Positions 12,333-63,097 of a DNA stretch of 64,000 bases are shown piece after piece. The notes under the pieces were generated by a model. It was not told the DNA's origin. It worked only from the letters and a program-made list of their open reading frames with translations, and made no database searches. Positions within the stretch are counted from its first letter, which is position 1. Each line of letters begins with the position of its first letter. The stretch is taken from IMG/VR virus record IMGVR_UViG_3300043570_001741, positions 1 to 64,000 of that record; one strand, written 5' to 3'. A program made the translations under genes and the position numbers. Source of the stretch: a virus.

Positions 12333-12336
12333 CCCA

Positions 12337-47394: not shown

Positions 47395-47395
47395 G

Positions 47396-48727
47396 ATGAC
47401 ACCAGCAGATTTAAAGAAAGAAGCCGGCAAAGGTCCATATAAAGGAATTGCACGTAGTCAAATTATTAAATTGAAAATTGCTGACGGAAAAGAGTTTACT
47501 TTAAACAATGGAGCTAAAGTAAAAGGCACCAATTGGGATGAGAAAACCTATACTCTATTTGTCGGCACTCGTAAAATTTCTTTGAAAGAGGTTAAGAAAG
47601 ACCCCGACTTTGGCGGTGGTGGTTCTGGTGCTGGTGCTGATGTTACTGCTATCGTTGAATGTGGTCAAGCATTAGTTTGTTCCTTGATTTATAATGTGAT
47701 AAAAAAAGAAATTAAATGGGAAGATTTGACGTATGATGGCCTACAAAAGGCAATGCAATATTGCGATTTGTCTGAAACCTTTGATACAATCATAGACCGT
47801 TCACCTCCAGAGTGGGTACAATCATATGTAAAATCAGCAAACATATTGTATAGAAATTATAAAATGTCTGGAACACCTGTGTATTTTCATAGAGGTTCTA
47901 AATTTATGAACGAAGTATATTCTGGAAAAAAGATTGTATTTGATGCTGATAAAAAATCAGATAACCCACAAGCACCAGGTTCTTTTTCTGATGACAAATG
48001 GAATCCAGGAGATATTTGGATGACCACTTTAAAAACTGTGCCAAAAATTAGTACCGATTCTTGGGCTTCATTGAACAAAGACATTTATGACTTAGCTAGA
48101 GCCAAAAAATTAGTTGGTGTGTCTTTAAAAAAGGTTGGCGCTTCAGCACACATTGAAGAATATAACGCATTATCGGCTAAACAAACAAAAGAATATCGAT
48201 ATGCCAGTTTCAGAGTAACATCTGCTTCAGAACGTGGCCCATTACCTCCATTCTTCAATTCTATTGACTTGTACATGTCCATTGGCGATAGAGAAGTACA
48301 GTTTCGAGCTACATCTGGTGAAGCCAGCTGGCAAGGAGAAATTAAAGGAGCAACAGCTGCCGGTGGTAAAATTGGTGGTGGTAATGTCAACTTCTATTTG
48401 AAAAAATATGTTGGTAAAGGTTTATTTGATAAGAGTGAAGATGAAGTTTTAAAATTCGTTAAGACAAAAGACTTTTTTCCAGAATTTTATGCACTATATA
48501 AAAAACACTTTGATGGCAAAATATTACCATATGAAGAATTTGTTATGAATGCTAATAATAAACAAAAAGATTCAAAAGGATATCTGTTCTCTAAATATAT
48601 GAACATGAAATTTATTGATATATTCCTAAGTGCAAACACGGCTACTCGTAATAAAATTGCTACCGACTTTGTGAGATATGCTGCTTCGAATACAGACCAA
48701 AGTTCCTTTTTCGTAAAAATATCCTAA
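47396..48727 (+). CDS. unknown late protein
   Basis: The 443-residue protein has an N-terminal 'AGKGPYKGIARSQIIKLKIA', a glycine hinge 'GGGGSGAGADVTAIVECGQA' and a long C-terminal region with 'GTPVYFHRGSKFMNEVYSGK' and 'MSIGDREVQFRATSGEASWQ'. No family was recognised. It is closely followed by the ligase-like gene, and its late promoter plus hidden ribosome-binding site imply strictly late synthesis. A virion or packaging role is inferred. A TTG three bases upstream is less likely as start. Confidence 0.75.
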   Translation: MTPADLKKEAGKGPYKGIARSQIIKLKIADGKEFTLNNGAKVKGTNWDEKTYTLFVGTRKISLKEVKKDPDFGGGGSGAGADVTAIVECGQALVCSLIYNVIKKEIKWEDLTYDGLQKAMQYCDLSETFDTIIDRSPPEWVQSYVKSANILYRNYKMSGTPVYFHRGSKFMNEVYSGKKIVFDADKKSDNPQAPGSFSDDKWNPGDIWMTTLKTVPKISTDSWASLNKDIYDLARAKKLVGVSLKKVGASAHIEEYNALSAKQTKEYRYASFRVTSASERGPLPPFFNSIDLYMSIGDREVQFRATSGEASWQGEIKGATAAGGKIGGGNVNFYLKKYVGKGLFDKSEDEVLKFVKTKDFFPEFYALYKKHFDGKILPYEEFVMNANNKQKDSKGYLFSKYMNMKFIDIFLSANTATRNKIATDFVRYAASNTDQSSFFVKIS

Positions 48728-48728
48728 A

Positions 48729-49961
48729 ATGAAATTCACACAATTTTTAACCGAATCAAAAAAAGAAGGTGCTAACCTTCACCTAGAACACATTGAAGAT
48801 GAAGTTCTGAATCGTGGTGTATCTGGTGTTAGAGATGCAATCAACTTCTTGCAATCTCTCCGTGACATGCTCGCAGGCCATTCTAATTCTAAAGTGAACC
48901 TAACTACAAAATGGGATGGTGCACCTGCTATTTTCTGTGGTATTAATCCAGACAATGGCAAATTCTTTGTTGGTACTAAAGGTGTATTCAATGCCAATCC
49001 TAAGTTAAACTACACCGATGCAGACATTGATGCAAACCATGCTTCAGAAGGATTAAACTCCAAACTTAAAGTTGCATTACGTTATTTGCCAAAATTAGGC
49101 ATTAAGGGTGTATTACAAGGCGACATGATGTTTGCTAAAGGTGATATACAGAACAAAACAATTGATGGTGAAGACTACATCACATTTCAACCAAATACAA
49201 TTGTCTATGCTGTGCCTGCTGATTCTAAGTTAGCACAAATGATGTTGGCTGCTCAGATGGGTGTGGTGTTTCATACTTCATATACAGGTAAAACATTCTC
49301 TGATATGAAAGCCTCATTCAACATTGATATTAAGAATCTTACAACAACCAAAGATGTTTGGTTCCGTGATGCTTACTTTGTTGATGCTTCAGGCACTGCC
49401 TCATTTACCGAAGAAGAAACAAGAACTGTCACATCTATTCTGTCTCAAGCAGGCAGAACTTTTCAAACAATCAATTCATTAAACTTGAATCGTATTTCAA
49501 CAAGTGATGTTATTCTTACATACATTAAAACATTCAATAACACCAAAGTGCGTGAAGGTCTGAAGATTAAAGACACAAGAGCTCACACACTAGAGTTGAT
49601 TCGTTGGGTTGAGGCTAAATTGAACAAAGACATTATTGATGCCAAGAAGGAAGAAACCAGACAGAAACGTATCAAAGAGAAAACAGAGATTATGCGTTTC
49701 TTCCGTAATGCGTCAACAGACTTGAAAAACATTTTTGATTTGATGAATCAGTTGGTTGATGTTAAGAATATGATTGTTAAGAAGTTGCAACAAATGAAAC
49801 AAGTAACCAATACATTCTTACGTACTGATGATGGTTTCAAAGTTACCAATCCAGAAGGTTTTGTGGCAGTTGATAGGTTAAAAGGTAATGCTGTTAAGTT
49901 GATTGATAGACTGGAATTTGCTCATGCTAACTTTAATGCCGCTAAGAATTGGAGCAAGTAA
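48729..49961 (+). CDS. ligase-like nucleotidyltransferase with capsid-targeting-like N-terminus
   Basis: The 410-residue protein has KWDGAPAIF (K61-x-D63-G64), the nucleotidyl-lysine motif KxDG of ATP-dependent ligases and capping enzymes. Near the C-terminus EGFVAVD (E376) and 'GNAVKLIDR' (K390) resemble motifs IV and V. 'GVLQGDMMFAKGDI' lies between. The N-terminus MKFTQFLTES resembles the T4 internal-protein signal (MKTYQEFIAEA) with an L-T-E cleavage site. It may be a nucleic-acid-modifying enzyme packaged in the head; the ligation activity is unproven. Confidence 0.72.
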   Translation: MKFTQFLTESKKEGANLHLEHIEDEVLNRGVSGVRDAINFLQSLRDMLAGHSNSKVNLTTKWDGAPAIFCGINPDNGKFFVGTKGVFNANPKLNYTDADIDANHASEGLNSKLKVALRYLPKLGIKGVLQGDMMFAKGDIQNKTIDGEDYITFQPNTIVYAVPADSKLAQMMLAAQMGVVFHTSYTGKTFSDMKASFNIDIKNLTTTKDVWFRDAYFVDASGTASFTEEETRTVTSILSQAGRTFQTINSLNLNRISTSDVILTYIKTFNNTKVREGLKIKDTRAHTLELIRWVEAKLNKDIIDAKKEETRQKRIKEKTEIMRFFRNASTDLKNIFDLMNQLVDVKNMIVKKLQQMKQVTNTFLRTDDGFKVTNPEGFVAVDRLKGNAVKLIDRLEFAHANFNAAKNWSK

Positions 49962-50239
49962 TGGATAAGAAATTTGATTTAACCGAAATCTTAGCCGAGT
50001 ATGGTGAAGACGACTTTGGATTTACGGCAACTGACGAAGAAGAATACAATGCGGTTATTGCGGAAAAAGATGAAACAGTTGAAGAATACAAAGCAAGATT
50101 AGAAGCAGTTGAAAAGTTGATTCTGCCTTTCTTAACTAGGTTGTTAAAGACTGCTGACCAACCGATTATTAAGTGGCCTAACCGCAAGCCGGCATTAGAG
50201 GCACAAATTCAAAAGATATTAAACCTAACACGAGGTTGA
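49961..50239 (+). CDS. unknown 92-residue acidic protein
   Basis: The protein 'MDKKFDLTEILAEYGEDDFG' continues with a helical region 'DETVEEYKARLEAVEKLILP' and ends 'PALEAQIQKILNLTRG'. It is probably a small helical adaptor. The ATG overlaps the stop of the ligase-like gene and uses GGAG at 49951-49954. No function was recognised. Confidence 0.7.
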   Translation: MDKKFDLTEILAEYGEDDFGFTATDEEEYNAVIAEKDETVEEYKARLEAVEKLILPFLTRLLKTADQPIIKWPNRKPALEAQIQKILNLTRG

Positions 50240-50240
50240 A

Positions 50241-50576
50241 ATGAAATTTACCGAATTCGATGAACTAATGGAAGCAGCCTATGCAGGCAATATCGGTATC
50301 ATGGAACTGATTAAGTTTAAAAGTAATGCTAGTCCAGAACAGAAAAAACAGTTTGATGACCATGTGAAGAACAAGCGCCACAAAGACGCATGGAAGATGG
50401 TCCAAGACGTTACAGGAGTCAAACTACATAAGAGTGTGCATGAAGAAATTAAACCTGATATCCTGCCTAAATCTGGCGCAGGTGCATGGGGAACAGATAC
50501 TCTGGCAAACAACTATAAAAAAGGCACGCCTGGCCAAAACATTACCTCATTTAAAGACTACAAAACAACTAAGTAA
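50241..50576 (+). CDS. small protein with capsid-targeting-like N-terminus
   Basis: The 111-residue protein starts MKFTEFDELMEAAYAGN, similar to MKFTQFLTES of the gene at 48729 and with an L-M-E gp21-type site. The remainder is basic and helical ('LIKFKSNASPEQKKQFDDHV', 'AWKMVQDVTGVKLHK') with a flexible C-terminus. A small internal head protein is a plausible role. GAGG precedes the ATG. Confidence 0.68.
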   Translation: MKFTEFDELMEAAYAGNIGIMELIKFKSNASPEQKKQFDDHVKNKRHKDAWKMVQDVTGVKLHKSVHEEIKPDILPKSGAGAWGTDTLANNYKKGTPGQNITSFKDYKTTK

Positions 50577-50593
50577 ACCAACTGGAGTATATT

Positions 50594-51430
50594 ATGAAAG
50601 ATTTGATAATCGGTGCAAGTACCAACTATGATTGGGACAAATTAAAATATTGGATTAATTCCATTAATAAATCGGGATTTGAAGGTGATAAAGTCCTGAT
50701 TCTAATGAACTGTGATGCAGCCACAGTTAAAAAAGTTAACGCAGCAGGTTTTAAAGTTATTGGATTCAACCAAGATTCCGATGGTAACTTGACCTACAAA
50801 TCAGAAATGCCAATCCACGTTGAGCGATTTGGCCATATCTACGAATATCTCCGCAAAAATGAATATCGTTACGTCATTACGACAGACGTAAAGGATGTTA
50901 TTTTCCAATCCAACCCTATTGACTTCTTAGAAGCAAATTGCCTTAGACATAATCTGGTGTTTTCTTCTGAGAGCATGTTATACAAAGACGAACCTTGGGG
51001 CAACCAAAACCTGTTGGAGACTTTTGGCCCTTATGTACACGGAATTTACAAAGAAAATGAAATCTATAATGTTGGTGTTCTTGCTGGTACTGGCTCTGCG
51101 GTGCGTGATTTGGCAATTAACATCTTCACCATGGCAGCAAACTGTCCGATACCAATTTGCGACCAATCAACATTTAACTTCATGGTCTCTATGAGTCCTT
51201 ATAAAGAAACTTCTCTTTATACTCAATCAGAAACAGGTTGGGCTTGCCAGTTGGGCACAACAGCAGACCCTAGTAAGATTAATCAATTTAAACCACATCT
51301 GTTAGAACCATCTCCTTCTATGTACCGAGGTATTGTGACCACATCAAAAGGAATTCCATACCATATTGTTCATCAATATGATAGAGTGCCTGAAATGCGC
51401 CGGATGATTGAGGAGAAATACGGTGAGTAA
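50594..51430 (+). CDS. glycosyltransferase-like protein
   Basis: The 278-residue protein opens 'DLIIGASTNYDWDKLKYWIN' and has 'KNEYRYVITTDVKDVIFQSN' with a DxxD-type nucleotide-sugar site, then 'NQNLLETFGPYVHGIYKENE' and 'YNVGVLAGTG'. This is the pattern of GT-A-like transferases found in phage and cyanobacterial glycan clusters. It opens a cluster of eight overlapping or closely spaced glycan-related genes. Start follows GGAG. Confidence 0.75.
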   Translation: MKDLIIGASTNYDWDKLKYWINSINKSGFEGDKVLILMNCDAATVKKVNAAGFKVIGFNQDSDGNLTYKSEMPIHVERFGHIYEYLRKNEYRYVITTDVKDVIFQSNPIDFLEANCLRHNLVFSSESMLYKDEPWGNQNLLETFGPYVHGIYKENEIYNVGVLAGTGSAVRDLAINIFTMAANCPIPICDQSTFNFMVSMSPYKETSLYTQSETGWACQLGTTADPSKINQFKPHLLEPSPSMYRGIVTTSKGIPYHIVHQYDRVPEMRRMIEEKYGE

Positions 51431-52133
51431 CGCATTAGTAATGGCAGGTCATGTAAGAACCTTTAAAAGTATCGCAGAAGAACTAACACATTTTATTCGC
51501 TTCAATGAATTGGATGTGTATCTGTATATTTGGGATGAAGGCAACCAAGATGAAATTGATTTTGTTGTTAAGACTTTGAAGCCAATTAAATGGAAGGCAG
51601 AGAAGAATGAAATTTATCTGCCAGAATTCCTTGAGGCTGAACAAAGAATCGTAACAAAAAATCCAAAAGAACTTATTACACCAGATAAAAACTTTGCAAC
51701 ACTATCGATGCACTTTGCACGTAGAAAAGCATTTGAGTTGATTGAAAAAGAATATGATAATGTTGTATTCTCCAGATTTGATACACATATGAATGCCTTC
51801 AGAATCAAAGCAATTGTTTCTGAATTTCCTGATGCAGTTGTTACACCAACCAATGAGCAGTATGGTATGGTGTCTGATATCTTTGCTATTGTTCCATGGA
51901 AATATGCAGACAACTACTTCTTCTACCCACGAGCAGAAGATATCTTGTCACGTAGATTCAATAAGAAAATGAAAGAATGGTTATCAGTTAAATTCTATTG
52001 GGAAAATGCTCAAAGAGATATCCGTTTACATGATGAGAATAGATATTGCCCACACATGTTGTGTATGAGAAACTTTTTTGAAACAAACACACCATATACT
52101 GTTGTTGATTTGCCTGTATTTTTAAGAAGATGA
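51423..52133 (+). CDS. glycosyltransferase-like protein, paralogue of next gene
   Basis: The 236-residue protein starts 'SNALVMAGHVRTFKSIAEEL' with 'DVYLYIWDEGN' and has 'NVVFSRFDTHMNAF', paralleling the next gene (LSGQARSFK, DVDIFIHTWE, KSRTDYAL). The conserved [SA]G[QH]xR[ST]F start and R-x-D site suggest a nucleotide-sugar enzyme. The best start is GTG at 51423 with AGGAGA at 51411-51416; an earlier TTG is less likely. It overlaps the upstream stop. Confidence 0.72.
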   Translation: MSNALVMAGHVRTFKSIAEELTHFIRFNELDVYLYIWDEGNQDEIDFVVKTLKPIKWKAEKNEIYLPEFLEAEQRIVTKNPKELITPDKNFATLSMHFARRKAFELIEKEYDNVVFSRFDTHMNAFRIKAIVSEFPDAVVTPTNEQYGMVSDIFAIVPWKYADNYFFYPRAEDILSRRFNKKMKEWLSVKFYWENAQRDIRLHDENRYCPHMLCMRNFFETNTPYTVVDLPVFLRR

Positions 52134-52134
52134 T

Positions 52135-52833
52135 ATGAAAATTGCTTTATGTTTATCTGGCCAAGCCAGAAGTTTCAAACAAGGTTATGAATACTATAAA
52201 AGAAACCTATTAGACAAACACGATGTGGATATATTCATTCACACATGGGAAGCTGAAGGCCTTGAAGAACTCCGTCAGTTGTATAAACCTGTAAAGATGG
52301 TGGTTGAGAAACCATTGGTTGGTGATTTTGATAAGAAGTACACAAACACACCAAATGCACAGGCACACCCATCACGCTTCACGGTGGCTATGTTGTATTC
52401 TATTTTCCAAACTATGTTGTATAAGACAGAACAGGAAATGGATAAAAAGTTTCTGTATGATTGGGTTATCAAGTCACGTACAGATTATGCCTTGAATGTG
52501 GAGATTCCATTTGCAGATTTGGATCCAACTAAGTTGTATATTCCAAATTGCAGAATGGTGCCTGAACGTGATTTTGGTAATGACCAATTTGCATTTGGTA
52601 ATTCAAATGTGATGAATCGTAGAATGTCAATTTACTTGAATATGGAACACTACTATGACCAAGGTGTTCAGATGATTGGTGAAGATATGATGAGAGCTCA
52701 TCTACACCACCACAGTCTTATTGGTGAGAATCTAGTTTATGTGAACATGAACAACCCATTTCCACCTGGCCAATTTAACGGCACTTGGCATAGTTTAATT
52801 AGGGATGATGCTGCCGAATGGAAGAAAAAGTAA
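52135..52833 (+). CDS. glycosyltransferase-like protein
   Basis: The 232-residue protein has 'MKIALCLSGQARSFKQGYEY' and 'LDKHDVDIFIHTWEAEG', a pattern seen in capsule and lipopolysaccharide gene clusters, and 'YDWVIKSRTDYALNVEIPFA' with a probable R-x-D sugar-nucleotide site. Its paralogue precedes it by one base. The sugar and acceptor are unknown. Confidence 0.75.
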   Translation: MKIALCLSGQARSFKQGYEYYKRNLLDKHDVDIFIHTWEAEGLEELRQLYKPVKMVVEKPLVGDFDKKYTNTPNAQAHPSRFTVAMLYSIFQTMLYKTEQEMDKKFLYDWVIKSRTDYALNVEIPFADLDPTKLYIPNCRMVPERDFGNDQFAFGNSNVMNRRMSIYLNMEHYYDQGVQMIGEDMMRAHLHHHSLIGENLVYVNMNNPFPPGQFNGTWHSLIRDDAAEWKKK

Positions 52834-53558
52834 TTAAAGAACTTAAAGGACATTCTGGTAGTAAAATCTATCTAATGTCTGATAAGTATAAAAAATTCAT
52901 TAGAAAAGTTGGTAACACAGAAAGAAACTACGAGAGGTTAATTTCTCTCGCTGGTTATTATCCTGTACCTAACATCTTTGAATACAAAGACCCCGTGTTG
53001 GATATGGAATATATTCATGGCCTAGACATGAAGAACTATTTGTTATCTGGTTCAACACAGAATTTAACCAATTTTCTATTAGATATATTAAGTAGTTTTG
53101 CGGATAGTGTGGTTGACAAAGACTACACAGAAGTGTATAATAAGAAGTTGGAATGGGTTGATAAAGAAGATTTGCCTTTTACCAAAGATGAATTGATTGC
53201 TAAGTTGCCTAAAATTCTACCACAGTCACAGTATCATGGTGATTTGACTTTGGAGAATATACTGCATACAAGCAACGAATTCTATATGATTGACGCAGTT
53301 ACTATTGAATATGATTCATACATATTTGATATTGCTAAACTCAGACAGGATTTAGAATGCAAATGGTTTCTACGTGATACAAACCTGATGTTAGATGTTA
53401 AGTTGTCAAGCATTCAGAAAAGAATTCTAAAAGAGTTTCCATTAGCCAACAATGATTATATTCTAATATTGATGTTGTTGCGAGTATACCTACACACAAA
53501 ACCAGGCGACATGGAAAGACAATTTATAGTGAAAGAGATTAATAGATTATGGAAGTAA
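52818..53558 (+). CDS. choline/aminoglycoside-kinase-like phosphotransferase (LicA-like)
   Basis: The 246-residue protein has the kinase Brenner motif HGDLTLENIL (H140, D142, N147) and a metal-binding D in 'FYMIDAVTIEYDSYIFDIAK'. This is the APH/choline-kinase fold with a short N-lobe. It overlaps the sugar or choline nucleotidyltransferase downstream, a kinase-cytidylyltransferase arrangement like LicA-LicC. The substrate may be choline, another amino-alcohol or a sugar. Confidence 0.78.
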   Translation: MEEKVIKELKGHSGSKIYLMSDKYKKFIRKVGNTERNYERLISLAGYYPVPNIFEYKDPVLDMEYIHGLDMKNYLLSGSTQNLTNFLLDILSSFADSVVDKDYTEVYNKKLEWVDKEDLPFTKDELIAKLPKILPQSQYHGDLTLENILHTSNEFYMIDAVTIEYDSYIFDIAKLRQDLECKWFLRDTNLMLDVKLSSIQKRILKEFPLANNDYILILMLLRVYLHTKPGDMERQFIVKEINRLWK

Positions 53559-54247
53559 TTGTACCGGCCGCAGGCCTATCAACTAGGTTTCCAAATATGA
53601 AACCAAAATATCTTCTGTTAGATAAAAATGACAGAATGATGTTAGCTAAATCCATCAACCCATATTTGTCTGAGGGTCACAATGTTACTGTTGGTATTCT
53701 TCAGGCACACATTGACAAATACGATTCTTACAACCTTTTAAAGGCTCAGTTTGGTGATAAGATTAACATTATTGTTATTCCAAAAGTAACAAGTGGTCCT
53801 GCTGATACTGTTTATCAGATTATTAAGGCTGCAAATATACCTGAAGACTCTGAGTTTTTGATTAAAGACTGTGATAGTTACTTCACACATACCAATACAC
53901 CTGGCAACTATGTCTGTATTAGTAGAATTGCAAACCATTTCATGTTAAGTAATTTGGCTGCCAAGAGTTTCGTGGTTTCAAATGAACAAGGCATTATTAC
54001 TGATATCATTGAGAAGAAAGTGGTATCTGATAAGTTTTGTGTTGGTGGTTATAAGTTTGAATCCATCAAACTCTATGTTGATACATATGAGAAATTAAAT
54101 AGTAATGTACATAATGAAATTTTTGTTTCACACATCATACAAGAATGCCTAATGAACGATTGTATCTTCTTTGAGAAGGATGTACAAGGTTATAATGATG
54201 TTGGAACAATAGAAGATTGGCGAAAATATAATGAGTCTCTTACCTGA
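53549..54247 (+). CDS. nucleotidyltransferase (LicC/NTP-transferase-like)
   Basis: The 232-residue protein begins 'EVIVPAAGLSTRFPNMKPKY', the NTP-binding signature of sugar and choline-phosphate nucleotidyltransferases (GxGxRxxxxxxK), and has 'FLIKDCDSYFTHTN' with a catalytic-type D-x-D. It should activate a phosphorylated substrate made by the overlapping kinase. The C-terminal 'GYNDVGTIEDWRKY' is typical of the family. Confidence 0.82.
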   Translation: MEVIVPAAGLSTRFPNMKPKYLLLDKNDRMMLAKSINPYLSEGHNVTVGILQAHIDKYDSYNLLKAQFGDKINIIVIPKVTSGPADTVYQIIKAANIPEDSEFLIKDCDSYFTHTNTPGNYVCISRIANHFMLSNLAAKSFVVSNEQGIITDIIEKKVVSDKFCVGGYKFESIKLYVDTYEKLNSNVHNEIFVSHIIQECLMNDCIFFEKDVQGYNDVGTIEDWRKYNESLT

Positions 54248-54941
54248 TAAAAACCTAATCATTGTCACATCGGCATTGGCACCAAACATAGGTGTTATTC
54301 CAAATGAAGACAGATATAAACAAACGATTGATTCGTTGGTGTCTCTACGTAAACACTTTCCAAATGATATCATTTTATTTACTGATGGTTCACCAAATGA
54401 AGTTGACCAAAAATGGTTAGAAAACATTTCAAACCATGCCGACATTATGGCAGTGTGGCACCAAGACAAAGATGTGAACCACTATGCAAGCGGTGGTATG
54501 AAAAGTCAGGCTGAACTTGTGTTGTTAATGAAAACAATTAATGTGTTGTACAACAATCCAGACTTGATGAGTATGATGCATAGTGTTAAACGTATCTTTA
54601 AATACTCGGCACGTACAGTATTGCTTGATGAGTTTGATTTAAAAGAGTATGATGGTCTATTTGGAAAGTATGTGTTTAAGAAGGCCATTCCATCTTGGAT
54701 GCCTGATGAAGCTAAGTTGATGTTAACAGACCACTTGTACATCACTAGGATGTATTCATTGTGCCCATCATTGGTGAAGGATTACATGGCAACTTTGATG
54801 GCTTGTTTAGAAAATACTAATCAAGGAATGGATACAGAACACGCACACCACATGAACATAGATAAACGATACGTGATTGAATTTGATAAACTGCATTGTT
54901 CTGGCATAATGGCCAGTACAGGCGCAACTGAGGTATATTAA
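54231..54941 (+). CDS. unknown protein of the glycan cluster
   Basis: The 236-residue protein has 'KNLIIVTSALAPNIGVIPNE', 'TIDSLVSLRKHFPNDIILFT' and 'DGSPNEVDQKWLEN', the early strands and turn of a GT-A-like fold, but no clear DxD. The middle is helical. Context suggests transfer or recognition of a glycan. It overlaps the nucleotidyltransferase by 17 bases. Confidence 0.65.
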   Translation: MSLLPDKNLIIVTSALAPNIGVIPNEDRYKQTIDSLVSLRKHFPNDIILFTDGSPNEVDQKWLENISNHADIMAVWHQDKDVNHYASGGMKSQAELVLLMKTINVLYNNPDLMSMMHSVKRIFKYSARTVLLDEFDLKEYDGLFGKYVFKKAIPSWMPDEAKLMLTDHLYITRMYSLCPSLVKDYMATLMACLENTNQGMDTEHAHHMNIDKRYVIEFDKLHCSGIMASTGATEVY

Positions 54942-54942
54942 T

Positions 54943-55626
54943 ATGGATTTAAAAGAATACTGGCTAAACAACAACGGCAAAAAGATTACAAAGTGGACTC
55001 ATTACTTTTGGGTATATGACCGACACTTTGCGGCACTACGAGATAAACCAATTAAGATGTTGGAGATTGGTGTATTGAATGGTGGTTCATTGGAAATGTG
55101 GAAGAAATACTTCCATCCTGATAGTACAATCGTAGGTATTGATATTACACCTAGTTGTAAAGACTTTGAAGATGCTGAGAATAATGTTCATGTCCGCATC
55201 GGTGACCAATCTGATCCAGAATTCTTACAAAGCCTTGTAGATGAATTTGGTGAGTTTGATTTGGTTTTGGATGATGGCAGTCACCATGTTGACCATGTGA
55301 ACAAAACATTCCAGTCCTTGTATCCAAAGATTGCTAAAGATGGTGTTTACTTCATTGAAGATACACATGCGGCATATTGGAATTCTCATGGAGGTTCTAT
55401 TGACCATCCAGATTCAATCAACAATGTGGCCAAGACCATGATTGATAAGTTGAATGCAGACCACACCAAAGGTCAAATTGCACCAGATTTCTTCACACAT
55501 GAAACAAAGTGCATGTCGTGTTATGATAGTATTGTGGTGTTTGAGCGTGGTAATGTGGGTGCTAAAATTCCACAAGAGTATGGTGGACCAAAATCTGATG
55601 AGGTTTTGATTATCAGAACTCACTAA
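54943..55626 (+). CDS. SAM-dependent methyltransferase
   Basis: The 227-residue class I methyltransferase has motif I MLEIGVLNGGSL (39-50), 'TIVGIDITPSCKDFE' and 'FDLVLDDGSHHVDHVNKTFQ', closest to macrocin/cephalosporin-type O-methyltransferases. It closes the glycan cluster, so O-methylation of a sugar is likely. No target-recognition domain for DNA is seen. Confidence 0.85.
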   Translation: MDLKEYWLNNNGKKITKWTHYFWVYDRHFAALRDKPIKMLEIGVLNGGSLEMWKKYFHPDSTIVGIDITPSCKDFEDAENNVHVRIGDQSDPEFLQSLVDEFGEFDLVLDDGSHHVDHVNKTFQSLYPKIAKDGVYFIEDTHAAYWNSHGGSIDHPDSINNVAKTMIDKLNADHTKGQIAPDFFTHETKCMSCYDSIVVFERGNVGAKIPQEYGGPKSDEVLIIRTH

Positions 55627-55666
55627 ATACTAAATAAGACATTAACAACTGCTGCAGAGGCGGGAC

Positions 55667-57853
55667 ATGAAATTTAGAGAATTTATTACTGAGAATAAAG
55701 AGAAACATGCGGTCATGGCGTTTGGCCGTATGAATCCACCTACAACCGGACATGAAGTCTTGGTCAATAAGGTTAAATCGGTTGCAAAACAAGTTGGTGG
55801 TTCCCATCACATCATTCTGTCTCATTCACAAGATGCCGCTAAGAATCCTCTTACTGCGGCACAAAAAGTAAAACATGCCAAAAGGTTCTTTCCAGATACA
55901 AACATATCTGTTGCAACCAAAGAAGAACCAAACTTCCTAACACAAGCAGCCAAGTTACACAAACAAGGTGTAACACATCTACACATGGTCGCAGGCGCTG
56001 ACCGTACCGCAGAGTACCACAAACTGTTGCACAAATACAACGGGACACATGAAGGTGCTCTTTTCAACTTCAAAAAGATAACTGTACATAACGCAGGTGA
56101 ACGTGACCCTGATGCTGAAGGTACAGAAGGCATGTCCGCTTCAAAGATGCGTAAACATGCAGGCTCTGGTAATTTTGATGACTTTAAACAAGGCATTCCA
56201 AAACATGTGCCAGAACACCATGCGAAAGAATTATTCCGTGATGTTCGTAAAGGCATGAGCATTAAAGAGTCTATTGACCTTAACGAAGAATTTGAAATTC
56301 TTTTGGAAGGCGTACACGACCAATCCATCTTCAAAGCTATCTTCTTAGCAGGTGGTCCTGGTTCTGGTAAAGATTATGTGTTAGACAATACACTTGATGG
56401 TCAAGGTTTAACAGAAATTAATTCAGACAAGGCACTTGAGTTCTTAATGGACAAAGAAGGTCTTGATAAGATGATGCCTGTTGGCGAAACAGAGAAACGT
56501 GACTTTGTTCGTGGTCGTGCAAAGAACATTACAGAGTTGCGTCAACAACTTGCACTATTAGGTCGCAATGGTTTGATTATCAATGGTACAGGTGATGATG
56601 TAGCTAAAACAAAACGCATCAAAGACCAATTAGAAAAACTTGGTTACGATACTGCCATGTTGTTGGTGAATACAAGAGATGATATCTCCGCTCAAAGAAA
56701 TATTGAACGTGGCCAACGTGGTGGTCGTGCGGTACCAGAACCAATTCGTAAAGAAAAGTGGGATAGTGTACAGTTAGCACGTACTGAATATGCTCAAATG
56801 TTTGGTGATAAGTATAAAGAATTTGATAACTCTGAAGACTTGAGGCAAGCTGATCCTGAAACAGTTAAGGCAAAGAAGTCTGAGCTGTTACAATTATATA
56901 CAGGTTTTAAAGAATTCGTTTCTACACCACCACAGTCAGAAGAATCTAAATTTTGGGTTGCTAATGAGTTGGATAAGAAAGACACTTTACCAGTTCAAAC
57001 TGATGGTGCTGAACAACTGCCTGCGTCTGATGATGCAACTGGTGAAGAAGCTAGAAAACTCGGTCTACAATACTATGGTTTTGGTAGATATGGCAGAAAT
57101 GGTAAAGTTACACATCGTTCTGTACATGGTCAATTGGTTTTGGTCAATAAAGAAGAACCAAAACAACCAAAGATTCCTGTGAGTAGTTCATCACAGAAAC
57201 CTGTTAAACCGGTTGTTAAAGAATCATCTGATTTGATATATGAAGATGGTTTGTTACGAGACAAGGCCGGTAAATTGCGTGTCTTCATGCTTAGAAATAC
57301 TGCAGCAAAAGAAGCACACACTAAAAATGGAACCATTATTAAACACAATAATGGTTATGTTGTTAAACTTAATGGAGAAAATAAAAATGCTAAATTATCT
57401 GAAGAAATTATTTCAAACCAAACCAAAAGAACAAGCTCCTTTGGTGAGTCCAGTTCTGGAAGAAATCGTAGTACCGGTGCCAGTGATAGAACCAACACCG
57501 GAACCAGTGCCAGTTCCAGTACAGGAAGTTGTTGTGGAACCAGCACCTGCACCTGTGACACCAAGCCAACCACCGAAGAAACAACCCGTAGCAAAATCAC
57601 ACTTGCAGAAATCCGCACCCGCCAAAAAGAAAAAGTAATTGAGTCTATCAATAATGGTGAATCTGGTCTTTCGATGGCTGCATCTGGTGAGAACCTTGGC
57701 CGTGATACAACAAGAATTAAGACACTAAAGAAACCATTAGAAGAACTGACTGGCGATGAAACAACCATGAGTATCGGTGACCAAAAAGAAGGCGAACTGA
57801 AACGAATTGGTATTAATCTTAAAACATTTAAATCTAAAAAGGTTATAGGATGA
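55667..57853 (+). CDS. bifunctional nucleotidyltransferase and P-loop kinase, capsid-targeting-like N-terminus
   Basis: The 728-residue protein has an N-terminal MKFREFITEN like the T4 internal-protein signal. An HxGH-type nucleotidyltransferase follows ('AFGRMNPPTTGHE' at 18-30, 'MSASKMR' at 156-162), similar to NMN adenylyltransferases. Next comes a P-loop kinase-like domain (AGGPGSGKD, 228-236) and then a linker. Residues from about 590 are S/T/G/C-rich ('SASSSTGSCCGTSTCTC') where a proline-rich frame overlaps. The C-terminal part is charged. NAD-related or RNA-end chemistry in the injected virion is a hypothesis. Confidence 0.8.
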   Translation: MKFREFITENKEKHAVMAFGRMNPPTTGHEVLVNKVKSVAKQVGGSHHIILSHSQDAAKNPLTAAQKVKHAKRFFPDTNISVATKEEPNFLTQAAKLHKQGVTHLHMVAGADRTAEYHKLLHKYNGTHEGALFNFKKITVHNAGERDPDAEGTEGMSASKMRKHAGSGNFDDFKQGIPKHVPEHHAKELFRDVRKGMSIKESIDLNEEFEILLEGVHDQSIFKAIFLAGGPGSGKDYVLDNTLDGQGLTEINSDKALEFLMDKEGLDKMMPVGETEKRDFVRGRAKNITELRQQLALLGRNGLIINGTGDDVAKTKRIKDQLEKLGYDTAMLLVNTRDDISAQRNIERGQRGGRAVPEPIRKEKWDSVQLARTEYAQMFGDKYKEFDNSEDLRQADPETVKAKKSELLQLYTGFKEFVSTPPQSEESKFWVANELDKKDTLPVQTDGAEQLPASDDATGEEARKLGLQYYGFGRYGRNGKVTHRSVHGQLVLVNKEEPKQPKIPVSSSSQKPVKPVVKESSDLIYEDGLLRDKAGKLRVFMLRNTAAKEAHTKNGTIIKHNNGYVVKLNGENKNAKLSEEIISNQTKRTSSFGESSSGRNRSTGASDRTNTGTSASSSTGSCCGTSTCTCDTKPTTEETTRSKITLAEIRTRQKEKVIESINNGESGLSMAASGENLGRDTTRIKTLKKPLEELTGDETTMSIGDQKEGELKRIGINLKTFKSKKVIG
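57387..57638 (+). CDS. overprinted proline-rich ORF inside the kinase gene
   Basis: In the +1 frame, an ATG at 57387 with GGAG at 57374-57377 opens 83 codons: a charged start 'MLNYLKKLFQTKPKEQAPLV', a PV/PE-rich middle ('PTPEPVPVPVQEVVVEPAPA') and a basic end ('SAPAKKKK'). The reading looks protein-like, while the host frame there is low-complexity. It could be a separately translated small protein or the product of frameshifting. No lipobox or signal peptide is visible, so it is not an Rz1-like lipoprotein. Confidence 0.45.
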   Translation: MLNYLKKLFQTKPKEQAPLVSPVLEEIVVPVPVIEPTPEPVPVPVQEVVVEPAPAPVTPSQPPKKQPVAKSHLQKSAPAKKKK

Positions 57854-58143
57854 AATCATTTAAAGCATTCATAACAGAAACGCCTGCTTGGACACGTAAA
57901 GAGGGCAAGAACCCTGAAGGTGGTTTAAACCGCAAGGGTATTGAATCTTATCGCCGTGAAAATCCAGGTTCTAAACTATCGATGGCAGTTACAACTAAGC
58001 CATCAAAATTGAAGCCTGGTTCTAAGGCCGCAAATCGTAGAAAATCATTCTGTGCTCGTATGGGCGGCATGGAAGGCCCAATGAAAAAACCTAATGGTGA
58101 ACCAACTCGCAAAGCCCTTGCACTCAAAAAATGGAATTGCTAA
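57850..58143 (+). CDS. DUF6321-like basic protein with capsid-targeting-like N-terminus
   Basis: The 97-residue protein starts MKSFKAFITETPAW, with an I-T-E gp21-type cleavage site, then 'TRKEGKNPEGGLNRKGIESY' and 'RRKSFCARMGGMEGP' and ends 'ALALKKWNC'. The body matches DUF6321-type phage proteins. It is strongly basic and could bind DNA inside the head. The ATG overlaps the kinase stop. Confidence 0.75.
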   Translation: MKSFKAFITETPAWTRKEGKNPEGGLNRKGIESYRRENPGSKLSMAVTTKPSKLKPGSKAANRRKSFCARMGGMEGPMKKPNGEPTRKALALKKWNC

Positions 58144-58746
58144 ATGTCAACTAACACAACATTCAAAATCTTTACCGACAAAATGGGCGGTACAAGAGCC
58201 AACACATATATTGGTACAACTGGTGAAGTATTTTATGATGTAGACGGCACATCAGCAATGAGGCTATCTAATGGCGTAACACCTGGTGGTATACCATTTG
58301 GCGTTTCTTCTGTTAGTGCATCATATGCTCCTGAATTTAAAACTGTTTCTGGTAATACGTTACCTGGTACCGTAACAACTGGCGCTTATGTTAAACAAGG
58401 TGCAATTGTTCATTTTAGAGTCAATGTTAATTTTGCAAATACATCAGATTTTGGAAGTGCTAGTCAATATAAACTAACATTGCCTTTTCCTGCGGCAGCA
58501 ACAGTAACAATTCGTGGTGGATCATTGCACAGTAAACCTGCTAATCCAGCAAACAATGCAATATATCACATTGCTGGAATTACTGACATTGAAGAACCTG
58601 CTTCTTCAAATACGGAGATGTTACTTTATTATTCTGGTAGTACAACAGACTTAGCATGGAAATCAACTACGCCAGTTAATGCAACATCAAATGTTAGCCA
58701 TTTTGATATTAGTGGTGCTTATGAAACGTCATCACTAACCGTATAA
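58144..58746 (+). CDS. virion structural or fibre-like protein
   Basis: The 200-residue protein begins with a tail-fibre-type repeat 'GTTGEVFYDVDGTSAMRLSN' and 'GVTPGGIPFG', followed by a beta-rich T/S/A-rich domain ('KQGAIVHFRVNVNFANTSDF'). Such repeats occur in trimeric phage fibres and decorations. No adhesin specificity can be assigned. It lies between internal-protein-like genes. Confidence 0.7.
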   Translation: MSTNTTFKIFTDKMGGTRANTYIGTTGEVFYDVDGTSAMRLSNGVTPGGIPFGVSSVSASYAPEFKTVSGNTLPGTVTTGAYVKQGAIVHFRVNVNFANTSDFGSASQYKLTLPFPAAATVTIRGGSLHSKPANPANNAIYHIAGITDIEEPASSNTEMLLYYSGSTTDLAWKSTTPVNATSNVSHFDISGAYETSSLTV

Positions 58747-58775
58747 TTTAATAAAAACAAAAACAGGAGAAACTC

Positions 58776-60317
58776 ATGTATTCAGATAACAAACAAATTC
58801 GTGATGTAGCAGATGTTGCTGCACGAATCATGGCTGGTTTACCACCACTTGAAGAAAAATTGCATCCAAATCAACAAAAGATTGATGTGGTTGACGATGA
58901 AAAGATTGATGGTAAAGATTTTGCCAAACTTCGTAAGATGAAGAAGGAAGAAATCGAGATTGAAGAAGAAAGTCATCAATCTAAGACTACAATGAAACAC
59001 ATTCCAAATCCAACACCTGCACAAAAACAAGCAGCTAAAGATATTAAACCCGGCGTTGGCGGTTATCGTGACCGTATTGATATGCTTAAAAGTGCCGGCG
59101 TTAAAGAGGAAGTTGAAGCAATCGATGAAGTTAAGATGGCTGATTTGCCATCAACTAAAGTTCAAGGTCGTGCATATGGTTCATCTAAACCAGAAGCAAG
59201 TGCATTTGATGTACTAAAAGGACCAAAAGATAAAGAATTGAAATCTATTGAGTCTGAGAAGAAGAAAAAGAAAATGTCTGAAATGGTTGCCACATATAAA
59301 GATGGCGGCATGAAGGCATTCTTTGAGTCTATTGAGAAAGAGGAAATGATTTCTGAAGAACCTGATTCTGCTCAATTTGCAAAAGAATTGGAAGACCAAA
59401 AGAAACGTGCAGCTGGTACTAAACCACAAGCTGAAGTTGCTAAACCATCCGTTCAAGCAGTTCAACAAGAAAGAATTGAAATTACCGATGAAATGATTTT
59501 TGAAGTTCTTGAAAATGCTGGTATTGATTTTGAATCATTGAGTGATGATGAATTGCAAATAGCTGCAAATGAGGCATATGAAGTTCTTCATGAAATTTCA
59601 ACAAAGACTTTAGCTAAAGCCGCTAGTGCTGCTTCTGACCCTGATGCAGACTATCATTATGGTAAGTCACACGACCCGCAAAAGTTTGCAGACCATGCTA
59701 AAAAGACTAAAGATGCAAAATCAGCAGCTGCTGTTCAAGGTGCCGCTGATGCGAAAGGCCACTATACAAGACCAGGGCATAGTCTTGGGTCCTATGATAA
59801 ACTTGCACACAGAACTCCTGCTCGTGTGACTGGTGTTGGAAAAGCAAATAAACAAGATGTTAACAAATTAAAAAAGAGTATAAGTCTAAATGCTGAAGCA
59901 ACTGAACAAGACATTTACGTTATCGATGCAGATTTGGCTAATGGTGTAGATGCTGTTAACATTGAAGAACGTACATTGACTGCCGGTGAGACAAAGAAGA
60001 AAGAAGAAATTGTTAAATCTATGAAAAAAGGTTTGGCAGGTTTCAAAGAGCGTTATGGTGACCGTGCTAAGAATGTCATGTATGCAACCGCCACTAAAAA
60101 TGCCATGAAAGAAGAAAAAGAAGACCATCATCAAAAAGGTTACGACCATGTGCGTGAGCCTATTTCTGATGAACCATATCTCGATAATGCTCGTGTAAGA
60201 TTTAACGAATTAAAAAAACAAAATCCTCATAAAAAAGGATCTCAAGAGCACAAAGATTGGCATTCTGGAGCATCAGCTGCATATGAAGAACATAAAGACA
60301 TATTAAGAGGCAAATAA
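58776..60317 (+). CDS. modular low-complexity protein, probably virion-internal
   Basis: The 513-residue protein is charged and mostly disordered with short modules: 'ISTKTLAKAASAASDPDADY', 'HYGKSHDPQKFADHAKKTKD', 'GETKKKEEIVKSMKKGLAGF' and 'KERYGDRAKNVMYATATKNA'. The last block recurs in structural regions of aquatic T4-like phages. No enzyme motif was seen. Many [L/I]-x-E sites could be cut by gp21. AGGAG precedes the ATG. Confidence 0.72.
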   Translation: MYSDNKQIRDVADVAARIMAGLPPLEEKLHPNQQKIDVVDDEKIDGKDFAKLRKMKKEEIEIEEESHQSKTTMKHIPNPTPAQKQAAKDIKPGVGGYRDRIDMLKSAGVKEEVEAIDEVKMADLPSTKVQGRAYGSSKPEASAFDVLKGPKDKELKSIESEKKKKKMSEMVATYKDGGMKAFFESIEKEEMISEEPDSAQFAKELEDQKKRAAGTKPQAEVAKPSVQAVQQERIEITDEMIFEVLENAGIDFESLSDDELQIAANEAYEVLHEISTKTLAKAASAASDPDADYHYGKSHDPQKFADHAKKTKDAKSAAAVQGAADAKGHYTRPGHSLGSYDKLAHRTPARVTGVGKANKQDVNKLKKSISLNAEATEQDIYVIDADLANGVDAVNIEERTLTAGETKKKEEIVKSMKKGLAGFKERYGDRAKNVMYATATKNAMKEEKEDHHQKGYDHVREPISDEPYLDNARVRFNELKKQNPHKKGSQEHKDWHSGASAAYEEHKDILRGK

Positions 60318-62315
60318 ATGAAAACGTGGTCTGAGTTTCTTACTTTACGTGAAAGGTGTTGGCCTGGTTACAAATCTGTGCCAGGTAAAAAAGCATATTC
60401 ACCTGGTTCTTGCGTAAAAGAATCTCCTACTATTGAAGAAGATTTGCGTAAATGGTTTAGTAAAACGGATCCAAAAGGTGGTTGGAAAAGGATCAATAGT
60501 AAGGGTGAAGCAATTGGCCCTTGTGCAAGAGAACCTGGTGAACCTAAGCCTAAGTGTATGTCTAACGAAAAGAGAGCTTCTTTAAGTAAAAAAGAAAGAG
60601 CATCTGCCGTTGCGTCTAAAAGAAAACATGACCCTAATCCTGAAAGAAAGGGTCCACCAATAAATGTGTCTAACTTTGGAAAAGGAAAGATAAGCGAAGA
60701 TATGGAAAACTTAAACGAAAAAAATGTACCAACAAGTCCAGAAAAATGGGCTCAGGCAAAAGCACAGGCTAAATCTAAGTTTGATGTTTACCCTTCTGCT
60801 TATGCCAATGGTTGGGCTGCAAAGAAATATAAAGCAATGGGTGGCGGTTGGAAATCAGTCAATGAAGTTAAAGAAGTTGGAGATGATCCAACTGGTGATA
60901 TCCCACCTGATAATCTTGTAAGAAAAGGCACTAAGGTTGTTGCTAAGCAGACGCAATTTGAAGAAACAGAGATGCTTGATGAACTATCTAACAATTTGTT
61001 ATCTCGTTACAAATCTGCTGCTACTAAACAATCTTCAAGTCTTGGTAAAGAAATGCAATCTGATTCCAGTAAGACCAAAAAGAATACAGAACTACAGAAC
61101 AAGAGGTTTTCAGGTACTATGAAAGCAACCACTAAACAATTTGCTAACGATATGAAAAACGAAGCTAAGGATCCTGGTGAATATGACCAAGAAGGTGACA
61201 TGGCCATGACACAATTGCGTAGTATTATTTACCACGCACAAGAGTTGCATGACCAATTAGATAAGGATGACAATCTTCCAGAGTGGGTTCAGTCTAAGAT
61301 TACTTTAGCGCAAGATTATATGCAAACTGCCCATGATTACATGTACTCACAGAAGAATGTAACAGAAGAAGTTGAATTGACTGAAGGTCGTCCATCACAA
61401 CGCCATCCATTGGAAGGCCATGAGTATCACAAAAAATCTGATGAGGCTTTGGTTCACATTGCTAAAGATGCACATGCAGCCGCTGAAGCAATGAAGTCAC
61501 ACAATCCAACTGCTGAGAACAAGTATCGTGACCAAGCCAATGATTCTGCAACAGTAAGACACTATCGTAAGACACATGGTATGGCTGATTGGTACAAAAA
61601 GAAGTATGGTCACATAAATGAAAGTGATGCATACGATAAAGATGTTAAACCTTCTGATAAACCACATGATAAAGAAGCCGCTGCAAAGCGTGCTAAAATT
61701 GCCGCAGTAATGGCAAGAAAGAAAATGGCTAAAGAAGAAGTTGAACAATTGGATGAGTTGTCACCTAGTACCTTACAGAGTTACAAAGTTGCTGGCCACA
61801 AGAAGTATGATAGTATTAGAAATAATACTGATGCTGATTCGATGGCTAAGAAATCTAAATTGGAAAAAGGTATTAAAACTGCTCATGCCAAGCAATTTCC
61901 ATCTAAACCTGCAGCACCTGCACCAAAGAAAGACCCTAATAGTCGTGGTTACGAACAAGGTCGTTATATGGGCGACAGCGTTGAACATGATGAATCATTA
62001 ATAGAGGGTGAAAGTTGGAAGGTAGATACAGGTTGGAAAAAATCTAAGTCGGATGAAGTTACAGATAAGTCTGGTGCAAAACATACAGCAATGTCTAGAG
62101 CAAAACATTTGGCCAAAATGGCTGCAAAGAAAAATGCCAATCCAACTAAGTCAATGCGTGAAGATGCAGAACCTGTTGAGAAAGAACCTGAAGAAGCACC
62201 AAAGAAAAGTCGTAAGGCTCAAATTGTTAAAGATGCTAAGAAATCTAAAACCGCATCAGCTGATAAGTTTCAATCGGAACCAGAATTAGGTTCCACTATC
62301 ACTAAAAATTATTGA
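60318..62315 (+). CDS. modular protein with DUF5872-like and repeated LDELS segments
   Basis: The 665-residue protein starts MKTWSEFLTLRERCW, a capsid-targeting-like N-terminus, then 'RCWPGYKSVPGKKAYSPGSC' and 'DLRKWFSKTDPKGGWKRINS', which match the basic DUF5872-type region. Further modules are 'PEKWAQAKAQAKSKFDVYPS', a first 'EETEMLDELSNNLLSRYKSA' and a second 'EEVEQLDELSPSTLQSYKVA'. The alternation of basic modules and acidic cleavage-like sites suggests a processed internal head protein. Confidence 0.72.
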   Translation: MKTWSEFLTLRERCWPGYKSVPGKKAYSPGSCVKESPTIEEDLRKWFSKTDPKGGWKRINSKGEAIGPCAREPGEPKPKCMSNEKRASLSKKERASAVASKRKHDPNPERKGPPINVSNFGKGKISEDMENLNEKNVPTSPEKWAQAKAQAKSKFDVYPSAYANGWAAKKYKAMGGGWKSVNEVKEVGDDPTGDIPPDNLVRKGTKVVAKQTQFEETEMLDELSNNLLSRYKSAATKQSSSLGKEMQSDSSKTKKNTELQNKRFSGTMKATTKQFANDMKNEAKDPGEYDQEGDMAMTQLRSIIYHAQELHDQLDKDDNLPEWVQSKITLAQDYMQTAHDYMYSQKNVTEEVELTEGRPSQRHPLEGHEYHKKSDEALVHIAKDAHAAAEAMKSHNPTAENKYRDQANDSATVRHYRKTHGMADWYKKKYGHINESDAYDKDVKPSDKPHDKEAAAKRAKIAAVMARKKMAKEEVEQLDELSPSTLQSYKVAGHKKYDSIRNNTDADSMAKKSKLEKGIKTAHAKQFPSKPAAPAPKKDPNSRGYEQGRYMGDSVEHDESLIEGESWKVDTGWKKSKSDEVTDKSGAKHTAMSRAKHLAKMAAKKNANPTKSMREDAEPVEKEPEEAPKKSRKAQIVKDAKKSKTASADKFQSEPELGSTITKNY

Positions 62316-62327
62316 GTGGTTGACAGG

Positions 62328-62335
62328 TATAAATA
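62328..62335 (+). promoter_or_regulatory. T4-type late promoter TATAAATA
   Basis: This exact late consensus lies 31 bases before the ATG at 62367, with a TAGGAG ribosome-binding site between them. It drives the 62367 onward unit. Confidence 0.8.
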
Positions 62336-62366
62336 AACAATCAAATCAGACAAATAGGAGAACAAT

Positions 62367-62720
62367 ATGTCTTTATGGGGAAATTTAGATGCCGCTAACA
62401 ATGCGCCAAAGTTTGCTGGCACTGGCGGTATCGGCTTAACAGCCAACACACAACAATTATTTTCAAACACAACATTTGCTACAACAAGCACTTCTTTAGG
62501 TATAGCAGGCCAAGCAACTGGTGTCTTTGGCATTAGTGTTACAGAAACAGCCAACACAGGCGGCGGCAGAGCCAACACAGCTGGCGCTCATGCTGGTTGG
62601 GTAATGCGTAAAGAAGGCACTGGCGGTCGTGCTGGTCGTATTCAAACAGAAACATTGGTTGCTATGGGCTCAATGACTGGTGACTTTGCAACTGCAAACA
62701 CCACTTATCCAGGTATCTAA
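62367..62720 (+). CDS. small glycine/alanine/threonine-rich virion protein
   Basis: The 117-residue protein has 'WGNLDAANNAPKFAGTGGIG' and 'AHAGWVMRKEGTGGRAGRIQ' followed by 'TETLVAMGSMTGDFA'. This block is familiar from structural proteins of aquatic T4-like phages. It has its own exact late promoter and strong ribosome-binding site, indicating high late expression. Precise function is unknown. Confidence 0.75.
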   Translation: MSLWGNLDAANNAPKFAGTGGIGLTANTQQLFSNTTFATTSTSLGIAGQATGVFGISVTETANTGGGRANTAGAHAGWVMRKEGTGGRAGRIQTETLVAMGSMTGDFATANTTYPGI

Positions 62721-63097
62721 TGCGATTCTCTGAATATATCCGTGAGATGGAAATTGGTGCGGTCTCAGGGCCTGCACCAACACCAGCACTCATGGATACA
62801 AATTTAGATAGTCTGAATAAGCGTTTGGATTATGATACTGATGAAAAGTTTTTATCTCCTGAGTCTGGTATACAAAGGATTCGTAGAGTGTTGCACTTGT
62901 ATGGTTATGACATGCCAGCACTTTACGATGCCGATCCAGAAGGAGATGAGGTGGTACTCGACCTAGATACGGATTTAGGCGTGTACATTTTATATACTCT
63001 CACCGATGATAATGATTATGAGTTTTATGCTGAGATTGGCCATGAAAGTCGTATGCAAGAGCTTTTATCGGATGAGGGAGAACCAGAAGAAGAATAA
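62720..63097 (+). CDS. acidic protein with capsid-targeting-like N-terminus
   Basis: The 125-residue protein starts MRFSEYIREMEIGAVSG with an I-R-E gp21-type site. The body is acidic ('GDEVVLDLDTDLGVYILYTL') and ends GEPEEE. It overlaps the upstream stop by one base. A small internal protein is possible; no fold was recognised. Confidence 0.68.
   Translation: MRFSEYIREMEIGAVSGPAPTPALMDTNLDSLNKRLDYDTDEKFLSPESGIQRIRRVLHLYGYDMPALYDADPEGDEVVLDLDTDLGVYILYTLTDDNDYEFYAEIGHESRMQELLSDEGEPEEE

Follow-up and report, generated by a model that had tools for sequence, protein, structure and literature searches.

A probable T4-type capsid-targeting sequence shared by unrelated proteins, large enzymes included, of a Kyanoviridae-like phage

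Why should proteins with unrelated bodies begin with nearly the same ten residues? The question is raised by a 64,000-nucleotide stretch of viral DNA (positions 1 to 64,000 of IMG/VR record IMGVR_UViG_3300043570_001741, which has 157,713 bases; the whole stretch is called the window hereafter), where a short N-terminal motif, aromatic-x-x-aromatic-[I/L]-x-E, recurs in several genes of one block. The motif resembles the capsid-targeting sequence (CTS) of the T4 internal proteins IPI, IPII and IPIII, which is likewise N-terminal, spans about 10 residues, has its aromatics three apart and ends in [I/L]-x-E, often with A, S or G next. We consider it very probable that the repeated N-terminus is a CTS of this type, used here on unrelated proteins including large enzymes. 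Seven proteins had been listed in the initial annotation as bearers of the motif, and all of them start where it placed them, with the residues it gave (they are named below by their start positions):

48729..49961, + strand: DUF6267 protein (PF19782, E 2e-113) with an RNA-ligase-like body; tag kept in relatives
48729..48755, + strand: predicted capsid-targeting tag MKFTQFLTE (then S) of the DUF6267 protein
50241..50576, + strand: small basic protein with the weak tag MKFTEFDELME, then AAY
55667..57853, + strand: protein with an NMNAT/cytidylyltransferase domain, a P-loop kinase domain of the polynucleotide kinase (PNK)/zeta type and an LGL..GxG module
55667..55693, + strand: predicted capsid-targeting tag MKFREFITE (then N) of the 55667 protein
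57850..58143, + strand: DUF6321 protein (PF19846, E 4e-22; isoelectric point (pI) 10.7) with the tag MKSFKAFITE, then T
60318..62315, + strand: modular protein with the leader MKTWSEFLTLRE, then RCWPGYK
62720..63097, + strand: acidic protein (pI 4.1) with the tag MRFSEYIRE, then M
10764..11543, + strand: protein with the weak tag MKSLNEFKSIVE, between the portal (gp20) and protease (gp21) genes

In T4, residues 4 and 7 of IPIII matter for targeting and residues 8 and 10 for processing (PMC9026906). A regular expression modelled on these four positions, ^M.{1,4}[FWY]..[FWY][ILVM].E, matches 4 of the 74 greedily called open reading frames (ORFs) of at least 60 amino acids in the window (48729, 55667, 57850 and 62720). 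Shuffling residues 2-24 gave a mean of 0.045 matches, none of 5000 shuffles reached four, and none of the 483 internal methionines taken as pseudo-starts matched. All four genes lie inside a 19-gene block at 47393-63490 (p=0.003). The N-terminus of 60318 fails the expression, its E standing two residues later (shifted site LRE). As the expression had been composed with the window N-termini already known, a scoring matrix trained on 20 tags of other phages was added. Its highest score in the window goes to 57850 (18.0), followed by 48729 (16.9), 62720 (9.6), 55667 (9.4), 3276 (9.3), 60318 (4.8), 10764 (4.3) and 50241 (-0.1), with the remaining ORFs at -1.2 or lower. The recurrence claimed in the initial annotation is borne out in this way, all seven named proteins falling in the top eight of 74. 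The motif is not equally frequent among non-virion genes of the window either: replication genes score below 0, the exception being a packaging protein, the terminase small subunit (3276). The top eight did not change when the four training tags of proteins with a body related to 55667 were dropped, and 50241 fell to rank 10 once two T4 tags were dropped. In a stretch of T4 with 65 ORFs, the expression matched IPII and IPIII only and the matrix ranked IPIII, IPII and IPI first, the tags of IPII and IPIII being part of its training.

Moreover, the tag is conserved. A set of 86 DUF6267 homologues, mostly the best 80 of 593 relatives and at least 73% identical, contains 85 with an HLEH anchor, among which 53 different N-termini occur; if more than one Met codon could serve as start, the one fitting the aromatic pair was taken. 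Of these 53 N-termini, 51 retain the tag, with F as the first aromatic (51/51), F or Y as the second, L or I behind it, and the E invariant (51/51). The residue after the E is A in 27, S in 16 and G in 6 of them (49/51), as a protease site would be expected to show, and the stretch that follows varies in length and sequence. The orthologs of 60318 carry differing leaders ahead of a common RCWPG body (MKSLKEFINE-GG, MKKFSDFLEG, MKKWSELRE, MKRLKDFIAE and the leader of 60318 itself; [LI]xE in four of the five), a variety expected of a putatively exchangeable leader. Genes at the position of 62720 start with MKNFKNHIAE in Methylophilales phage Melnitz-3 (Melnitz) and with MKSFKDFQNVNE in Pelagibacter phage HTVC008M, the body of the Melnitz gene showing no detectable similarity to 62720.

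The scan was also widened to 1.34 Mb of sequence with 1586 ORFs, any ATG within the first 40 codons being allowed as start; this sample is biased towards the surroundings of DUF6267 genes and contains the window itself along with near copies. The expression matches 142 genes in 16 body clusters, which include HAD-like proteins (FDIDDT by eye; PHROG 'polynucleotide kinase') and small basic proteins, together with one cluster that is GIY-YIG-like (homing-endonuclease-like) by eye and counts as a chance match. Relatives L064 (2953-3564) and L073 (6746-7360) have tagged HAD-like proteins with a match to PHROG 'polynucleotide kinase', and in others (e.g., L063, 1857-2747) a HAD-like domain with the tag precedes a 50241-like body in one fused protein. 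Melnitz has an ATP-grasp protein that also bears a tag (MTQKFSQFITE). A further tagged family of about 350 residues lies beside DUF6267 in seven genes (e.g., L003 12203-13288, L035 946, L042 5081, L080 1405); two of its three scanned members are weakly PHROG 22045-like, and the family is absent at window position 47393. Its Melnitz member (L003 12203, MQGFKTFLSE) was rejected as a homologue of the 47393 protein, with which it shares position only: blastp found no similarity and the PHROG 22045 match is weak. An internal motif of the SWR[DE][DE][FLI] type has four matches in the loci.

A protease and a scaffold of the T4 kind are encoded in the same window as the tagged proteins:

12313..12987, + strand: gp21-like prohead protease (Peptidase S77; PF03420, E 1.5e-35; phrog_207, head maturation protease), the predicted tag-cutting enzyme
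13021..14019, + strand: gp22-like T4-type scaffold (PF25623, E 3e-67)
14046..15386, + strand: gp23 major capsid protein (PF07068, E 2e-142), with L50-Y-E52 near the expected end of the propeptide

The cut site L50-Y-E52, already pointed out in the initial annotation, is present as it was described. The cleavage rule of gp21 is [LI]xE (PMC9026906), and such sites number 13 in the scaffold of this phage versus 5.4 expected, and 16 versus 5.7 in T4 gp22; the like enrichment of both scaffolds suggests the same protease specificity. A non-virion control, gp46, is likewise enriched at [LI]xE (16 versus 9.0, P 0.008), not at [LI]xE[AGSN].

Do the tagged proteins enter the head? Published virion lists of cyanophages offer an answer from outside the window. 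The study of S-CREM2 lists 52 virion proteins (PMC10665884), 41 of which lie inside the set of 197 coding sequences (CDS) that we took from bases 1-150,000 of its 174,876. The expression, fixed before this genome was examined, matches three of the 197, all three detected by mass spectrometry (Fisher p=0.0085): a SAM hydrolase (MKDFDSFLEE), which matches the S-AdoMet lyase family, an APH-like kinase (MKRFDAFLTE) and a cytidylyltransferase (MKNFSSFLTE). A relaxed expression, composed after the detected N-termini were known, matches seven CDS, five of them detected (p=0.005), the two undetected ones being 17943 and 139029. A detected protein annotated as Cas9, a name that rests on the authors since Pfam finds no domain in it, shows LRFASFMAE-A at residues 17-25, and homologous leaders carry SFLKE-A in S-H34 and SFIKE-A in S-CRM01. 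A kinase was detected in S-CRM01 virions according to the S-CREM2 authors (PMC10665884), and MISFDQFLSE is the start of the S-CRM01 gene with the annotation serine/threonine kinase. For S-CREM1, 14 detected proteins were reported (PMC9964418). For S-SCSM1 (virion study PMC9602691), 135 CDS of bases 30,001-130,000 were taken, 26 of them marked virion protein in the record.

Homology leads to the same lists. Twelve block proteins were compared with 27 selected proteins of S-CREM2 and S-SCSM1, 24 of them virion-listed, and four (47393, 55667, 57850 and 60318) match virion-listed proteins with E below 1e-8. Homologues of the N-terminal domain of 55667 are virion proteins of both phages, segments homologous to 57850 occur in virion proteins of both, and segments homologous to 60318 in virion-listed proteins. 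Besides, 63098 matches an unlisted protein, 49949 (49949-50239) weakly matches, over 38 residues, the Cas9-annotated protein of S-CREM2 in its C-terminal part (E 3e-4), and 58144, 58776 and 62367 have no match among the 27. The proposal of the initial annotation that enzymes and basic proteins are packed into the head is supported: the tag and virion-listed homologues speak together for 55667, 57850 and 60318, and the conservation of the tag by itself speaks for 48729; for 62720 and 50241 it is plausible, with no virion homologue found for them. The protein 10764, given its position between portal and protease, probably belongs to the prohead core rather than to the packed cargo, and its neighbour 10573 weakly matches PHROG 'prohead'.

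A number of results weigh against a CTS. In the window, the E is followed by S, N, T, R, M or A, the small residue after the cut holding for the DUF6267 family only (N, T, R, M or A in the other tags); the terminase small subunit is a false positive of the matrix; and 62720, being acidic, does not fit the description 'basic proteins'. When T4 tags were left out of the training, the T4 internal proteins ranked only 2-4 of 65, with low scores, in the order IPI, IPIII and IPII behind ORF 12272 (tRNA region, no annotated CDS). In S-CREM2, 38 of the 41 detected proteins, mostly structural, lack the strict tag; in S-SCSM1 only one of the two matches is marked virion protein (p=0.35), and 25 of the 26 virion-marked proteins are untagged, ORF90 (the homologue of 47393) among them. 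The 27 compared proteins are a selection with just three undetected ones, and they include no virion homologue of 48729, 50241 or 62720. The S-CREM2 authors, who propose encapsulation, allow for carry-over in CsCl preparations (PMC10665884). Finally, none of the 51 CDS of HTVC008M fits the expression, and the DUF6267 proteins of Syn9, S-PRM1, P-HM2, S-WAM1, DSL-LC02, S-8S53 and S-CRM01 have no tag. Those of the six cyanophages other than Syn9 begin near (N)THLEH or NVHLEH, about where the bodies of their tagged homologues begin; of five checked, four (not S-PRM1) have a stop in frame no more than 20 codons upstream. The adjoining cytidylyltransferase of S-WAM1 and DSL-LC02 carries the tag although their DUF6267 does not, and therefore the tag appears to be gained or lost by body and lineage.

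Accepting that the tag targets and is cut, the proteins could still serve head assembly only, as core scaffolding or for DNA condensing, and not as effectors. This we regard as unlikely, even though 10764 sits in the core gene cluster, 57850 is very basic and a role in head morphogenesis has been suggested for T4 IPIII (PMC9026906), because the bodies look like those of enzymes. The DUF6267 protein carries K61-x-D63-G64, Q130-G-D132, E376-G377 and K390, catalytic-type motifs whose residues are invariant in 11 homologues except for G131, which is nearly so; assigned by eye, they are what we take to be motifs I, III, IV and V of KxDG nucleotidyltransferases. On these motifs the protein resembles a nucleotidyltransferase or RNA-ligase-like enzyme. 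Its predicted structure is of low confidence (predicted local distance difference test (pLDDT) score 63): the best Foldseek match (E 0.33) is a non-ligase, RNA ligases come at ranks 2, 3, 4, 6 and 9, none of them significant, and in a second fold comparison the best ligase (Z 5.3) stays below unrelated folds reaching 7.5. For 55667, Pfam reports Zeta_toxin above and CTP_transf_like below the cut-off, and Foldseek returns ATP sulfurylase 1i2d first (E 1.6e-7), NadR 6gyf (E 1.9e-7, TMt 0.31), polynucleotide kinase 4gp6 (TMt 0.69) and NadD 8aih, with adenylate kinases among the significant matches; as modelled, it is an NMNAT-like fold followed by a P-loop kinase fold in a NadR-like arrangement. 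Searches of PDB sequences with profiles of both proteins gave nothing useful. Added to these two is the SAM hydrolase of S-CREM2, tagged, detected and related to a lyase family, which also speaks for effectors. Because of the DUF6267 and 55667 enzymes and the polynucleotide-kinase-like tagged proteins of relatives, a possible purpose of the cargo is the repair of nucleic-acid ends or the restoration of NAD at the start of infection.

Quite improbable, in our judgement, is that the proteins share an amphipathic helix at their N-terminus for docking to membranes or proteins, with the virion detections reflecting carry-over of abundant late proteins. Residues 3-12 of the DUF6267 protein are indeed modelled as a helix, at low confidence, and carry-over in CsCl is admitted as possible by the S-CREM2 authors (PMC10665884); however, the A, S or G after the E in 49 of 51 N-termini suits a protease site better, only IPII and IPIII, where the tag is experimentally defined, fit the expression among 65 T4 ORFs, and in S-CREM2 the tag picks out detected proteins, if in small numbers. 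Chance, or a functionless leader kept by shared descent, has in its favour the shortness of the tag, the matrix score of the terminase small subunit and one of 16 clusters that looks homing-endonuclease-like by eye; but with no shuffle in 5000 reaching the observed count, and with 51 of the 53 different DUF6267 N-termini retaining the tag ahead of a variable stretch, this idea is scarcely credible.

With the repeated N-terminus read as a CTS, the following route may be proposed. The tag would bind the core of the prohead and thereby have otherwise unrelated proteins incorporated. The gp21-like protease would then remove the tag by a cut behind the E of [I/L]-x-E, in most cases with A, S or G as the next residue. 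The mature proteins, i.e., the ligase-like DUF6267 enzyme, the NMNAT and polynucleotide-kinase-like enzyme, the basic DUF6321 protein and the modular basic protein, would then stay in the head and probably be delivered with the DNA, as carried over from T4.

A second element accompanies the tag. A segment of about 38 residues, LGL..GxG.W...G....R...G.L, is common to virion-associated proteins of unrelated kinds, and in the window it is found once:

57044..57157, + strand: the LGL..GxG module, at residues 460-497 of 55667

The module follows the tag in the Cas9-annotated protein and the kinase (two copies) of S-CREM2, in Syn9 gp184 and in the NMNAT of S-SCSM1. Leave-one-out profiles recover each left-out module (E 6e-13 to 5e-6; kinase 6e-15), and three copies compared with Pfam gave sub-threshold matches only. 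One copy, searched against phage records, returned 38 of them, four without annotation, the annotated carriers being cytidylyltransferase/NMNAT, NadR-like, Cas9-annotated and hypothetical proteins. The module may bind head or core components. We tentatively suggest, at somewhat less than even odds, a two-part cargo code in Kyanoviridae-type phages, where a cleavable tag, in several cases with the LGL..GxG module behind it, loads ready-made enzymes of host takeover or counter-defence into the head. Candidate cargo would be the SAM hydrolase, the Ser/Thr kinase, the NMNAT-kinase, the ligase-like DUF6267 enzyme and polynucleotide-kinase-like HAD proteins, plus the Cas9-annotated protein of S-CREM2 with its tag-like stretch.

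How does this arrangement compare with known systems? The T4 internal proteins also have unrelated bodies, and T4 shares the S77 protease and the scaffold type with this phage. Unlike them, several bodies here are large enzymes or modular proteins, their genes form a block between the gp41 and gp61 genes, and the second module is present in one tagged protein and in relatives. T4 Alt is a head-packaged ADP-ribosyltransferase with a short, cleaved N-terminal propeptide (PMC9026906), whereas the enzymes found here by domain search are of other kinds, no search having been aimed at ADP-ribosyltransferases. There is also a likeness to the virion enzymes of S-CREM2 and S-SCSM1, with a homologous NMNAT/cytidylyltransferase, DUF6321 segment and 60318-like segment, and with the same type of tag on the SAM hydrolase, kinase and cytidylyltransferase of S-CREM2; the accessible text of both papers reports detection and no targeting tag. 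The cargo differs, a Cas9-annotated protein and a SAM hydrolase standing on their side of the comparison and a tagged DUF6267 protein on this one. In the giant phage SPN3US, the prohead protease removes propeptides of ejection proteins for which a CTS role was proposed (PMC5694885), although several of those propeptides exceed 100 residues.

In the window, the head genes are followed by replication genes and then by the block, which begins at 47393, extends beyond the window and reaches up to a primase-like gene. The same order of helicase, block and primase is found, from annotations, in HTVC008M, Melnitz-3, Syn9, S-CRM01 and S-SCSM1, and by its nearest named relatives the phage is Kyanoviridae-like. 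Other features of the block are:

47393..48727, + strand: phrog_1462 protein heading the block, untagged; its homologue, S-SCSM1 ORF90, is an annotated virion protein, untagged too
58776..60317, + strand: modular linker-rich protein without N-terminal tag; [LI]xE sites not enriched
62328..62335, + strand: T4-type late promoter box TATAAATA, 39 nt upstream of the 62367-62720-63098 gene run

A polyprotein cut at internal [LI]xE sites was considered for 55667 (10 sites versus 7.4 expected), 58776 (7 versus 5.1) and 60318 (10 versus 3.7, P 0.001), and was dropped because only 60318 is enriched and the control gp46 is enriched too. Late promoters for internal proteins of the T4 kind are our own expectation, for which the evidence is weak: TATAAATA occurs four times on the + strand and never on the - strand in 80 kb (3.7 expected per strand), one copy preceding 62367, and TAAATA lies within 60 nt upstream of nine of the 17 structural genes, two of the 34 replication genes and three of the 19 in the block. 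A cassette at 50594-55626, inside the block of tagged proteins, holds a glycosyltransferase-like gene, accompanied by others that look by eye like genes for sugar-nucleotide enzymes and methyltransferases. The protein at 46245-47360, which adjoins the block, matches Druantia DruA (PF14236), and 28464-29741 is similar by eye. At the start of the window (104-2234), three similar proteins in tandem are LamG/concanavalin-like by eye.

The tag itself is known from T4, and a review of this phage proposes it as the route by which T4-like phages acquire cargo (PMC9026906). New here are its presence on these families, its concurrence with the virion lists of cyanophages and the LGL..GxG module; in the literature searched, mostly non-subscription, we found no earlier report of a T4-type CTS in cyanophages. 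The leaders described also offer natural means for loading large enzymes into T4-like heads. Judging from their accessible text, cyanophage virion studies find NMNAT and kinases and cannot separate cargo from contaminants, and a tag on virion enzymes provides an independent sequence criterion together with a mechanism, making the set of injected proteins a matter of testable prediction for a widespread group of phages. If the two-part code were true, the tag alone would predict much of the injected enzyme set of each phage.

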